A stretch of DNA of 64,000 nt from Betaproteobacteria bacterium (GTDB lineage Bacteria; Pseudomonadota; Gammaproteobacteria; Burkholderiales; Rhodocyclaceae), in the NCBI GenBank assembly GCA_016234745.1, contig JACRAR010000074.1:434001-498000 (forward strand). Reading direction: 5' to 3'. The notes beneath the pieces are model-generated. The model was not told the origin of the DNA, searched no databases, and worked only from the letters and a program-made list of their open reading frames with translations. Shown piece by piece: positions 8,883-11,918 of this stretch (positions are counted from its first letter, which is position 1; each line of letters starts with the position of its first letter). The translations under genes and the position numbers were made by a program.

Positions 8883-10253
8883 CTATTGAAACTTCAGGCC
8901 GTACGCGATACCGATCGAATCCTCGTACAGTTTGAGCGTTTCATTGCCGGCGATGCCGACACCGCCGGGCGCACCACCCGTTGTGGTGACCCAGTTGTTG
9001 AGCAGACTGGGTGCAGTCAGCGAGCGTTTGAACGCATGCATGTAGGCCATGGTCAGCTCGGAGTTCTTGCTGAGGTTGTAGGTGAAACCTGCGGTCAGGT
9101 GATCCTCTATCACGCCGGGGGCGATGATGTTGAAAGTGATATCGCGCGGCCGCAACGGCCGGTTGCTGTGGTCGTAACCCGCGCGCAGGATCAGGTTCGG
9201 GCTGTATTGGTGTTCCACGCCGAGTTTGTAGGCATTCACGTCGCGCCAGCCGAAGCCGCGGCAGGCGTCGCAGCCGAGCGATCCCAGGGTATAGCCTGTG
9301 GCGGCCACGGCGTCGCCGATATTGGTGCTCGGATTGCCGGCCGAACTTACTCCGGTCAGATTGATGCGTCGGTACTCGGATGCGATGGTCCAGGTCGGAG
9401 ACAGCTTGTACGCAATACCCAGGCTCATGTTCGAGGGAATATCGAAATTTCCCCAGCCGGGAAACAGGTCCTTGTACATGTCGAACTTGCTCATGCGCAT
9501 CTTGGTGGCATAGGCGGCGCCCAACGTTATCCTGTCCGTCACATTACTCATCCAACCCAGGCGCAGGCCGAAGCCGTGCGAAGAATCGTAGCCCAGGTTG
9601 GTGATGGCCGGGTTCGCCGGATTCGTCGTGAAGCCGGCAAATCCATGCAGCCCGCGGCCGCCAAACTTCTGATAGCCGATCAGCAGGGCGGCGCCCAGGG
9701 AAGAGTCCGGGCCCACCTTGAAGGAGAACGTCGGCGCGACAATCAGCTGGAGGGTGTTTTGTCCCAGTTCGCCGTTGCCACAGAGCAGGTTGTAGCGAGT
9801 CGTGGCGGTTCCCGGATTGAAGCTGTTGCAAACCGTGCCCGGCCCGCCGGCAATCTGACCGCCCGGATAATTGGTATTCATGCCGCCGTTGGCATACACG
9901 GTGACACCGACCGCCATCTCCTGGCCCAGCATCTTGTTGTAGCCGAATTCCGGAATCAGGAAGAGGTTGCTGCGGCTCGGCACGGCAGCATCGATCCCGG
10001 CGAGGCTGCCGCTGCGCTCTGCGCTGCGGTGGGGAAGAAAGACATCCATGCCGGCATCCAGCCTGTCTCCTACCCAGACCATGCTGGCGGGGTTGTTGGC
10101 GCCACCGAAGGTATCCTTGGCCATGGGAGTGGAGATGCCCGCCATGCCCTTGGCCGTCATGCCGTAGCCGTGGGAGAAATATCCGTCGGTTGCCAGCGCT
10201 GGTGCGGCAAAGCCGACAACCAGCAGCGCCGATACTAAATATTTTATTTTCAT
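8883..10253 (-). CDS. FadL/OmpP1/TodX-family outer membrane transporter
   Basis: 456 residues with a clear signal peptide (MKIKYLVSALLVVGFAAPALA). The mature start TDGYFSHGYGMTAKGMAG is the FadL hatch region, and a glycine- and aromatic-rich beta-barrel follows, ending in a C-terminal FQ suitable for Bam recognition. FadL proteins carry long-chain fatty acids, alkanes or aromatic hydrocarbons across the outer membrane by lateral diffusion. In an organism with an HBCR-type enzyme an aromatic or hydrophobic substrate is plausible, but this is inference. The start was placed at ATG 10253 because the signal peptide begins there. It converges on the MFS gene. Confidence 0.9.
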   Translation of the reverse strand: MKIKYLVSALLVVGFAAPALATDGYFSHGYGMTAKGMAGISTPMAKDTFGGANNPASMVWVGDRLDAGMDVFLPHRSAERSGSLAGIDAAVPSRSNLFLIPEFGYNKMLGQEMAVGVTVYANGGMNTNYPGGQIAGGPGTVCNSFNPGTATTRYNLLCGNGELGQNTLQLIVAPTFSFKVGPDSSLGAALLIGYQKFGGRGLHGFAGFTTNPANPAITNLGYDSSHGFGLRLGWMSNVTDRITLGAAYATKMRMSKFDMYKDLFPGWGNFDIPSNMSLGIAYKLSPTWTIASEYRRINLTGVSSAGNPSTNIGDAVAATGYTLGSLGCDACRGFGWRDVNAYKLGVEHQYSPNLILRAGYDHSNRPLRPRDITFNIIAPGVIEDHLTAGFTYNLSKNSELTMAYMHAFKRSLTAPSLLNNWVTTTGGAPGGVGIAGNETLKLYEDSIGIAYGLKFQ

Positions 10254-10424
10254 GGTGCCCCTTGCTAAGGTGCAGTGCGCGGCAGCAGATCCGCAGGGCA
10301 CGCGAAGAATTGTCAGAGTTTGGCGCGCAGTTTAACAGCGTTGTCAGCCGTCCAATGACGAAATCCCGGAAAACTGTGAACTGGCTCACAGCCGGCATGA
10401 TCACCGTCTGATATAAAGGTGCTG

Positions 10425-10527
10425 GTTTAACCGAAAAGAGCAAACCTCGGCGAAAGCCAGGGACGCAAAGTCACCGACCTACCGGGCACGTTGAGCAGTG
10501 CCCCAGGGTTGCGGGATTGCCGGGAGA
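10425..10527 (+). promoter_or_regulatory. Cyclic-di-GMP-I (GEMM) riboswitch
   Basis: The leader of the PilZ gene matches the GEMM-I aptamer closely. AGCAAACC begins at about 10438, then a hairpin with a GAAA tetraloop (CGGCGAAAGCC), then GGGACGCAAAGTCACCG from 10460, a CCTAC tetraloop-receptor-like element, and a second hairpin with 6-bp arms GGGCAC/GTGCCC. The 3' part GTTGCGGGATTGCCGGG is very like the end of the Vibrio Vc2 aptamer. The GGGAG ribosome site (10522-10526) of the next gene lies right at the aptamer's 3' end, which suggests control of translation initiation. Boundaries are approximate. Confidence 0.9.
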
Positions 10528-10532
10528 TCATC

Positions 10533-11006
10533 ATGAGTACTGCATTGAATAGCTTGCCTTCATCAAAATCGGGCGCCGGCACGTGCCTCGAATATCAAAA
10601 CAAGCAATCCGTCGTCGTGCCCCGTGGTGCTGAGCGATATCATGTGAGATGGAAAATTGCGCTGATTTTCGACCAGCACGATCAAAGACCCCCGTTGCAG
10701 GGTAGAACCCTGGATTTATCGCTGACCGGAACGGCCATGCATACCAACGCCGACATTTTTACGACCTCTCCGGTAATTCTCTTGTTGGCGCCGCCCCCGC
10801 TGCTTTATGGACATCGGCAGCAAATTATCGAGATTAATGCCCGCCAGGTGTATTCGGTGTATTCGGGAGCGAGTTCCTGTTTTCGCCTCGGATTCCAGTT
10901 TACCCACTATAAGGATGATGGCCTGCAGGTTCTCCAGGAGATGCTGCGATTTTCCCTGCCAGCGCGTCATCATGTAACCAGATTTTCTGGAGAAGTCGGA
11001 AAGTAA
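10533..11006 (+). CDS. PilZ-domain protein under riboswitch control
   Basis: 157 residues. A PilZ-like core spans about residues 32-140: basic residues near 32-39 (RGAERYHVRW) followed by DLSLTGTAM match the RxxxR and (D/N)xSxxG c-di-GMP-binding motifs, with slightly unusual spacing of the first motif. A short N-terminal tail and a basic C-terminal tail flank it. ATG 10533 is chosen because GGGAG lies 6 bases upstream, directly behind the c-di-GMP aptamer. The same second messenger may thus control both synthesis and activity of this protein. The downstream target (motility, adhesion, exopolysaccharide) is not evident. Confidence 0.8.
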   Translation: MSTALNSLPSSKSGAGTCLEYQNKQSVVVPRGAERYHVRWKIALIFDQHDQRPPLQGRTLDLSLTGTAMHTNADIFTTSPVILLLAPPPLLYGHRQQIIEINARQVYSVYSGASSCFRLGFQFTHYKDDGLQVLQEMLRFSLPARHHVTRFSGEVGK

Positions 11007-11226
11007 CTCAGTCAGCTGCAAGTGTTCTGGTCTTCTTCGCAGCATGTAACATGAATCGGCGAGAACTACGCCGGCTATTTTCCATCGGGGGATGCCAAGA
11101 GGCCGGTTCATCTGCTGCGTGATTGCAGCACAACGCAAGCCAATCCAATTCGTGATCCGGCCTTGACCGGTCACTGCCTGAGATCAAGCCGTCCGCCAAC
11201 TGCTTCCAAGTAGTTGACGCAGGTCA

Positions 11227-11918
11227 ATGTCGCTACGCCTACGCTGCGACAGAGTCAACCAAGCCAGCCTCGATCCTTTGGTAACCATCAGCCCCGCAGG
11301 CAAGATCACCGACGTCAATACTGCAACGGAACTTGCAACAGGCTTGAAACGAGACGAACTGATCGGCCAGGATTTTGCAAACTATTTCACCGAACCCGAC
11401 AAAGCACGCGCGGGATATCAGAAGGTGTTTTCACTTTGATCTGTGACTGACTACCCGCTGGCGATTCGGAATGTGTCCGGCAGAATCACTGACGTGCTCT
11501 ATAACGCCGTTGTTTATAGTGATGAGACAGGGAATGTCTTGGGTATATTCGCCGCAGCGCGCGATGTCACTGAGCGCAACAAGATTGAAGCGGAAATCCT
11601 TCGTTCCAATGCGGAACTGGAGCAATTCAGCTATGCCATTTCGCACGACATGCGCCAGTCCTTGCGCATGATTTCCGGACATCTGGGACTGCTCGAAAAG
11701 AGTATTGCTGATCACCTGGATGCGGATCAATTGCAATCATTCAAATTTGCGATTGAAGGCGCGCAGCGCCTCGATCAGATGATGATGGGGCTGCTGGAGT
11801 ATTCAAGGGTAGGTCGCAAGGGTGAACCTCCGGCCTGATCTGGGCCGAGTCGGCAGGTGAAGGACAGGGAAGTCGATTTTGCGTTGCGCTGCCTCAGGGA
11901 GGTACTGAAAATCGATGA
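11227..11918 (+). pseudogene. Decayed PAS-sensor histidine kinase
   Basis: Remnant of a PAS/PAC histidine kinase with two lesions. The PAS part begins ASLDPLVTISPAGKITDVN and runs to a TGA stop at 11437-11439, then continues in the same frame with TDYPLAIRNVSGRITDVLYN, AARDVTERN and the dimerisation/phosphoacceptor region EQFSYAISHDMRQSLRM (His in SHDMRQ). After LLEYSRVGRKGEPPA the frame stops at 11836. In the next frame a tail IWAESAGEGQGSRFCVALP is the end of an ATPase domain, so most of the HATPase domain (N, G1 and F boxes) is deleted. Upstream sensor sequence is also missing. It can no longer make a kinase. Confidence 0.82.

Follow-up and report, generated by a model that had tools for sequence, protein, structure and literature searches.

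A c-di-GMP-I aptamer with A at position 20 overlapping the Shine-Dalgarno sequence of a stand-alone PilZ gene

Can one cyclic dinucleotide set both how much of a receptor protein is made and how active that protein is? The question is raised by a locus in the 64-kb stretch of DNA analyzed here (the window), in which a c-di-GMP-I (GEMM-I) riboswitch aptamer runs directly into the ribosome site of a PilZ-domain gene. We asked what the RNA and the protein are, which ligand the RNA may read, in which direction it may switch and how common such an arrangement is. Papers are cited by their PMC identifiers.

Aptamer, leader and gene

A covariance search with RF01051 matched the leader at 63.0 bits against a family cut-off of 35 bits and covered the model end to end, and a chance product is excluded. 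All the hallmark GEMM-I elements that the initial annotation had read from the sequence were present (Table 1); every Rfam pair is standard, and P2, P3 and the tetraloop are intact. In clan competition, RF01051 was retained for the window and not the c-di-GMP-I-GGC variant RF03167. The aptamer was the sole above-cut-off Rfam match in the 64-kb window and the single c-di-GMP-I match found in a search of the genome (4,283,989 bases in 83 contigs, 97.9% complete). The base of P2 is built of G10440–C10466 and C10441–G10465, which is the c-di-GMP type. The equivalent of A47, described as the adenine stacked between both ligand guanines (PMC9049102), follows P2 directly, and the mapped C92 equivalent would be the expected Watson–Crick partner of a ligand guanine.

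Table 1. Features of the aptamer–PilZ locus (window coordinates)
Feature	Position	Strand	Basis
Extended –10 like element TGATATAAA	10409-10417	+	Read from sequence
P1 5′ strand GGUUUAACCG, core CCG 10431-10433	10424-10433	+	Minimum-energy fold of 10424-10532
c-di-GMP-I (GEMM-I) aptamer, RF01051	10429-10524	+	cmscan, 63.0 bits, E 5.9e-10, model 1-87
A at the Vc2 G20 position (ligand-selectivity base)	10439	+	Rfam model position 11
P2 hairpin	10440-10466	+	Rfam alignment, pair list
GCAAACC	10440-10446	+	Sequence
GAAA tetraloop of P2	10452-10455	+	Sequence, Rfam alignment
GGGACGCAAAG	10460-10470	+	Sequence; second hairpin then follows
A47 equivalent	10467	+	Alignment
P3 hairpin	10469-10518	+	Rfam alignment, pair list
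GTTGCGGGATTGCCGGG	10508-10524	+	Sequence
C92 equivalent	10520	+	Mapped from the cGAMP riboswitch structure (junction G74-C75-C76)
P1 3′ strand, Shine-Dalgarno inside	10521-10529	+	Fold of 10424-10532
Shine-Dalgarno GGGAG	10522-10526	+	Sequence; 6 nt before ATG 10533
Stand-alone PilZ-domain gene, 157 aa, stop included	10533-11006	+	ATG 10533, ORF, PF07238
Apparent histidine kinase remnant: PAS and HisKA pieces in one frame, stop-interrupted	11227-11838	+	ORF, Pfam

The 3′ end of the aptamer had been said to touch the ribosome site, and the two indeed share bases. GGGAG begins at the second P1 base past the ligand-pairing C and is overlapped by the 3′ strand of P1, a layout into which no separate expression platform would fit. 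Judging from the –10 like element, transcription would start near 10424, and a promoter scan demanding a –35 element found none for the leader; given such a start, the best explanation is that the aptamer makes up the whole 5′ leader of the PilZ gene. No plus-strand terminator-like site lies between the aptamer and the gene or anywhere before 11056, and the only one within 10250-11250 is located past the PilZ gene. A Shine-Dalgarno inside P1 and a gene with no plus-strand terminator-like site ahead of it agree with the earlier proposal that translation initiation is controlled and not termination.

The ORF list places the start of the PilZ gene at an upstream TTG (10491). Translated from the ATG (10533-11003), the product scored 26.9 bits against the PF07238 gathering threshold of 22.5 bits, a modest value on its own, and it carries both PilZ motifs, R35xxxR39 and D61LSLTG66 (RxxxR and (D/N)xSxxG), so that the assignment to PilZ stands. 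When the protein was aligned with 19 homologues, R35, D61 and G66 were invariant throughout; 15 of these 20 sequences matched PilZ at E≤1e-3. The protein probably binds c-di-GMP. NCBIfam gave no match to it and the PDB no sequence match; an AlphaFold model built without an alignment had a mean pLDDT of 32 and was left unused. A search for the protein among viral and plasmid sequences returned nothing useful, and one for the leader in plasmids matched merely 40–50 bases or so in three records.

Position 20 and the ligand

The initial annotation had called the leader a c-di-GMP riboswitch. The class is borne out by the 63-bit match; the ligand is less settled, with A10439 standing in place of the usual G. 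In Vc2, G20 is said to help the RNA tell cyclic dinucleotides apart (PMC9262584), and G21 and C46-A47-A48-A49-G50 are given as pocket residues (PMC7288161). The window has A at position 20, followed by G10440 (G21) paired with C10466 (C46) and then AAAG (A47–A49 and G50). In the Geobacter cGAMP riboswitch, A14 is a pocket residue contacting the ligand (PMC6274999, PMC7288161), and by our mapping it would be the equivalent of position 20 in the window. A class I aptamer with the G20A change is reported to bind cGAMP (PMC6274999, PMC7288161), and a G20A GEMM-I sensor is listed for cAMP-GMP (PMC11352751). Other positions matter too: point changes in lower P2 are described as altering selectivity (PMC9262584). 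The corresponding change in Cd1 (G11A) reportedly did not alter c-di-GMP binding by much (PMC9262584), although mutants of Vc2 are given higher Kd values (PMC9049102). With the Cd1 mutant still binding c-di-GMP, G20 is a usual and not an obligatory feature of c-di-GMP members.

To see how often A20 occurs, we examined the source genome together with 60 relatives; 31 of these 61 genomes contributed 57 GEMM-I sites, two of which scored under the family cut-off. This search used stricter filters, under which weak matches may be lost. Position 20, taken as the 11th base of each match with no preceding gap assumed, was G at 53 sites, A at three and U at one. The A20 sites were the window, one in genome G059 and a doubtful one in G051 (L052b). 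Under one strict, exact pattern applied to 399 genomes sampled from the order, two genomes had A20, with one site each, and 67 had G20; a Sideroxydans MAG (L168) outside this count also has A20. Across GTDB genomes, the A20 pattern, which required the c-di-GMP type P2 base, gave at least 119 stretches, and by record title 83 among the matches listed were from Firmicutes, 32 from others and four unclear, although the order of the records may bias the Firmicutes share. Given how frequent A20 is in Firmicutes among the matches listed, it seems unwise to read the base by itself as a mark of cGAMP, and we rejected it as proof of that ligand. The other A20 site of the order sample (L017, G059:C8, minus strand) precedes a gene for ankyrin repeats and an adenylate/guanylate cyclase catalytic domain.

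In the Geobacter cGAMP riboswitches, the base of P2 is altered relative to the c-di-GMP type. Set against these GEMM-Ib features, the window has the A20 and lacks the Geobacter-like altered P2 base. Two relatives showed weak GEMM-I matches (45–50 bits; L050, G050:C76, and L052, G051:C1; two of them 1.2 kb apart) with the junction CGGAAAG versus CGCAAAG, which we take to resemble the P2 base of the Geobacter cGAMP riboswitches.

The genome's own enzymes were read for the same distinction. It contains 47 GGDEF matches, and the 46 that cover the Hypr position all have Asp there, the remaining fragment stopping short of the site; cGAMP-making Hypr enzymes are described as having Ser at that position (PMC6456294, PMC8835794). 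A search of the genome for DncV gave no match, its control being likewise silent. With a c-di-GMP type P2 base and a non-Hypr Asp in all 46 readable GGDEF domains, c-di-GMP appears the likelier ligand than cGAMP, at reduced certainty.

Relatives and other GEMM-I leaders

The closest same-genus homologues of the PilZ protein have 65% (G003), 61% (G001) and 61% (G002) identity, and neither an Rfam search nor motif reading found a GEMM-I aptamer upstream of any of the three genes. G002 and G003 have GEMM-I sites away from the PilZ contig, and the search of G001 gave no site. When the three loci, together with one more from the family (L061), were searched permissively with Rfam, nothing matched at E≤1. 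The expectation that the leader–PilZ pair recurs in related genomes thus failed in these three homologues, and the pairing is, as far as searched, specific to the source genome. In the window, the PilZ region is flanked by FadL and YicC genes, which in G001 and G003 lie off the PilZ contig; G002 gave only weak FadL matches. Between the PilZ gene and the YicC-like gene, the window has what looks like a decayed kinase.

We next considered which genes stand behind GEMM-I aptamers elsewhere. A motif pattern was applied to 186 candidate sites, the 57 described above and 129 from the A20 pattern, the latter mostly supported by the pattern alone and some probably due to chance. Four sites were flagged for PilZ (the window, L161, L046 and L229), L046 and L229 by pattern alone, and the sole other confirmed PilZ target among the 186 was L161 from Lachnotalea glycerini. 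A comparison by eye of the PilZ list with the relatives' GEMM-I sites took in the matches listed, to about E 3e-8, a range that excludes weak ones like the window's PilZ. Pfam was run on 55 mechanically chosen downstream ORFs and the window's own, one of the 56 other sites having no ORF and many ORFs ending at the locus edge. PilZ was not among the families with two or more members in the 25 of 47 families listed for these 56 proteins. The commonest family behind the relatives' aptamers was DUF1631, with 9 of the 56 scanned proteins (the window's included); its function is unassigned, and it may belong to the c-di-GMP network. In one relative, two divergent and nearly identical GEMM-I aptamers lie about 350 bases apart (L009 and L032, G006:C18:88577-89104).

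A scan with rough patterns for aptamers abutting a Shine-Dalgarno gave 13 matches from 165 of the 186 sites, and we judged the window and six others to be convincing. Nine sites were rescored with Rfam (L017 and L030 from the relatives' set; L155, L158, L161, L168, L174, L208 and L210 from the A20 set), and all nine fell within the clan. The abutting leaders were RF01051 at L030, L155, L158 and L208 and RF03167 at L174 and L210; the genes behind them are transglutaminase-like (L155, L174 and L210), SinI (L208) or weakly cytochrome-like (L158), that at L030 having no Pfam match. A Shine-Dalgarno directly at the aptamer is a recurrent minority arrangement.

Several of these sites are worth recording in their own right. 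In Peribacillus deserti (L208:4766-5039), the gene whose Shine-Dalgarno abuts an RF01051 aptamer with A20 encodes the anti-repressor SinI, a possible link between a cyclic dinucleotide and biofilm control. In a gammaproteobacterial MAG (L158:7144-7763), another RF01051 aptamer with A20 runs directly up to the Shine-Dalgarno, and the gene behind it has a doubled CXXCH motif and weak cytochrome matches; cytochromes are described as one target type of the Geobacter cGAMP riboswitches (PMC6456294). Transglutaminase-like genes are preceded by tandem aptamers at L174:6176-6395 and L210:1739-1976 (minus strand), of which those nearer the start codon match RF03167; the A20 pattern therefore picks up this variant as well.

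Control of PilZ synthesis and activity

The GEMM structure is the minimum-energy fold of 10424-10532 (–38.5 kcal/mol), with P1 formed by 10424-10428/10525-10529 and 10431-10433/10521-10523, G10524 unpaired in the bound-like fold and P1 pairing at 69–93% in the ensemble. A specially evolved extension of P1 beyond CCG/CGG was ruled out, as 29% of 5,000 shuffled strands were equally stable. We then computed the mean unpaired probability of GGGAG for nine lengths ending between 10532 and 10700, starting at 10424 or 10400. Enforcing P2 and P3 without P1 made GGGAG less unpaired in all nine lengths from 10424 (for example, 0.46 to 0.28 at 10560 and just 0.39 to 0.38 at 10580) and in six of the nine from 10400. 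Additionally enforcing the P1 core, by which 10522-10523 are paired by construction, made it less open in eight of nine and nine of nine lengths, respectively; the exception was 10700 from 10424, in which the site became slightly more open (0.28 to 0.31). In the free folds of 10424-10580 and 10424-10700, P1 is nearly absent from the ensemble, and the first Shine-Dalgarno bases pair with coding sequence instead; the fold from 10400 up to 10600 also lacks P1. The predicted folding effect on the Shine-Dalgarno is modest and varies with length and start. Given this dependence and the ordinary P1 extension, a model of direct occlusion rests chiefly on the position of the Shine-Dalgarno, with modest support from folding.

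With moderate confidence, a little above even, we favor the reading that the leader is a translational OFF switch with a G20A pocket, which acts by direct occlusion of the Shine-Dalgarno and lowers PilZ synthesis while the same messenger loads the PilZ protein. Binding of the messenger, most likely c-di-GMP, would stabilize the closing helix P1; its 3′ strand overlapping the Shine-Dalgarno, the stabilized helix would cover the site, hinder the 30S subunit and so reduce the amount of PilZ made. The same messenger would also bind PilZ protein already present, and one signal would then give fast loading of the effector and slow throttling of its synthesis. Such a circuit would be an incoherent feed-forward loop if the loaded form of PilZ is the active one and a coherent loop if the free form is. 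We infer the transcription start, the ligand, the OFF direction and the binding and output of the PilZ protein. The initial annotation had envisaged a single messenger governing the protein's synthesis as well as its activity, as a feed-back or feed-forward loop: the layout agrees with feed-forward, and feed-back, for which PilZ would have to act on the messenger, was rejected, since nothing pointing to such an action was seen.

Reports on related switches point in both directions. One text describes Vc2 as switching translation OFF in a manner that depends on how stable P1 is (PMC9262584), and in Bc1, c-di-GMP is said to lock both the RBS and the AUG into structure (PMC11218506). The same report has Bc1 hardly affecting its own downstream genes in vivo, which counts against the OFF reading, and another text terms Vc2 a gene-on switch, in conflict with the OFF description (PMC12564702). 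The three same-genus homologues without the leader also count against the OFF reading, as do the departure from the usual G20 and the modest PilZ score.

The gene-on label, together with the opposite trend in the fold ending at 10700, led us to lower the OFF reading and to raise its converse, an ON switch in which the unliganded Shine-Dalgarno is held by the early coding region and the ligand rearranges the pairing. The two free folds that pair the first Shine-Dalgarno bases with coding sequence (10424-10580 and 10424-10700) and the slight opening on enforcement of the aptamer at 10700 fit such a switch. Against it, the enforced aptamer closes the site in the other eight lengths from 10424 and in all nine from 10400, and a formed P1 and a free Shine-Dalgarno are mutually exclusive, having bases in common; we regard the ON switch as rather unlikely. 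The aptamer might also sense 3′,3′-cGAMP, alone or along with c-di-GMP, through A20. The base itself, its scarcity in the order (2 versus 67 of 399 genomes), the ligand contact of the mapped A14 (PMC6274999, PMC7288161) and the reported cGAMP binding of G20A aptamers (PMC6274999, PMC7288161, PMC11352751) speak for this ligand. The G–C/C–G base of P2 matches c-di-GMP RNAs, and lower P2 is described as setting selectivity too (PMC9262584); with Hypr Ser in none of the 46 readable GGDEF domains and A20 frequent outside the Geobacter group (83 Firmicutes among the at least 119 matches listed, from the pattern alone), cGAMP sensing seems unlikely.

Finally, the leader could be a decaying or recently acquired aptamer with no real hold on PilZ. 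The genome search gave no second riboswitch of its class, the leader is missing from the three same-genus homologues, FadL, PilZ and YicC lie on separate draft contigs in G001 and G003, and the apparent decayed kinase sits directly downstream of the PilZ gene; the permissive Rfam search, likewise finding no aptamer in the homologous loci, raised our estimate of this account. The Rfam pairs are nevertheless all intact, the Shine-Dalgarno, start codon and –10 like element are well positioned and the PilZ ORF is open with its motifs kept, leaving decay or recent acquisition improbable.

Compared with known systems, the window shares with Vc2 (Vibrio cholerae, RF01051) the fold, the GAAA tetraloop, the CAAAG junction, A47 and the mapped C92, and Vc2 is reported to control translation by way of P1 (PMC9262584). 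It differs in having A20 and not G20, a Shine-Dalgarno inside P1 and a PilZ target; in Vc2, the RBS is distant from the aptamer, according to a title cited in PMC9262584. With the Geobacter cGAMP (GEMM-Ib) riboswitches of pilM and pgcA, it has in common the A at the selectivity position, whereas its P2 base is of the c-di-GMP type, its readable GGDEF domains are without the Hypr Ser and its target is neither a cytochrome nor a pilus gene. In Bacillus subtilis, c-di-AMP is reported to repress KtrAB via a riboswitch and also to inhibit the transporter directly (PMC7288161); as predicted for the window, a single cyclic dinucleotide acts on a system at two levels, its synthesis and its activity, but the messenger and the RNA class are different and the process is potassium transport. 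The Lachnotalea glycerini site (L161) is likewise an RF01051 aptamer (66.5 bits) with A20 ahead of a PilZ-encoding gene; its product, unlike the window's, is a multidomain cellulose-synthase-like glycosyltransferase of 759 aa, and about 97 nt separate the end of the Rfam match from the start codon. Full-text searches of open-access literature and passages from selected papers did not turn up a direct pair of GEMM-I and stand-alone PilZ. The RNA class and the protein family are known; the target is unusual, and the G20A pocket is a natural one.

The locus is a compact, testable system in which one messenger, or a related pair, would govern the amount of a receptor as well as its activity, the ribosome site being part of the aptamer. 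Were cGAMP read, RNA and PilZ protein would follow different messengers and the leader would be a point of cross-talk. A bolder proposal, which we consider speculative and doubtful, is that a natural G20A GEMM-I from this order reads cGAMP (or cGAMP and c-di-GMP) to dose a c-di-GMP-binding PilZ effector, or that A20 detunes the RNA toward the weaker binding range of PilZ; if true, one effector would be under two-level, possibly two-messenger, control. Affinities are given as 1 nM for Vc2 versus 840 nM for a PilZ domain from E. coli (PMC12564702). With GEMM-I binding very tightly and PilZ more weakly, it is worth asking how a single signal is divided between the two levels, and A20 may have a part in the answer.
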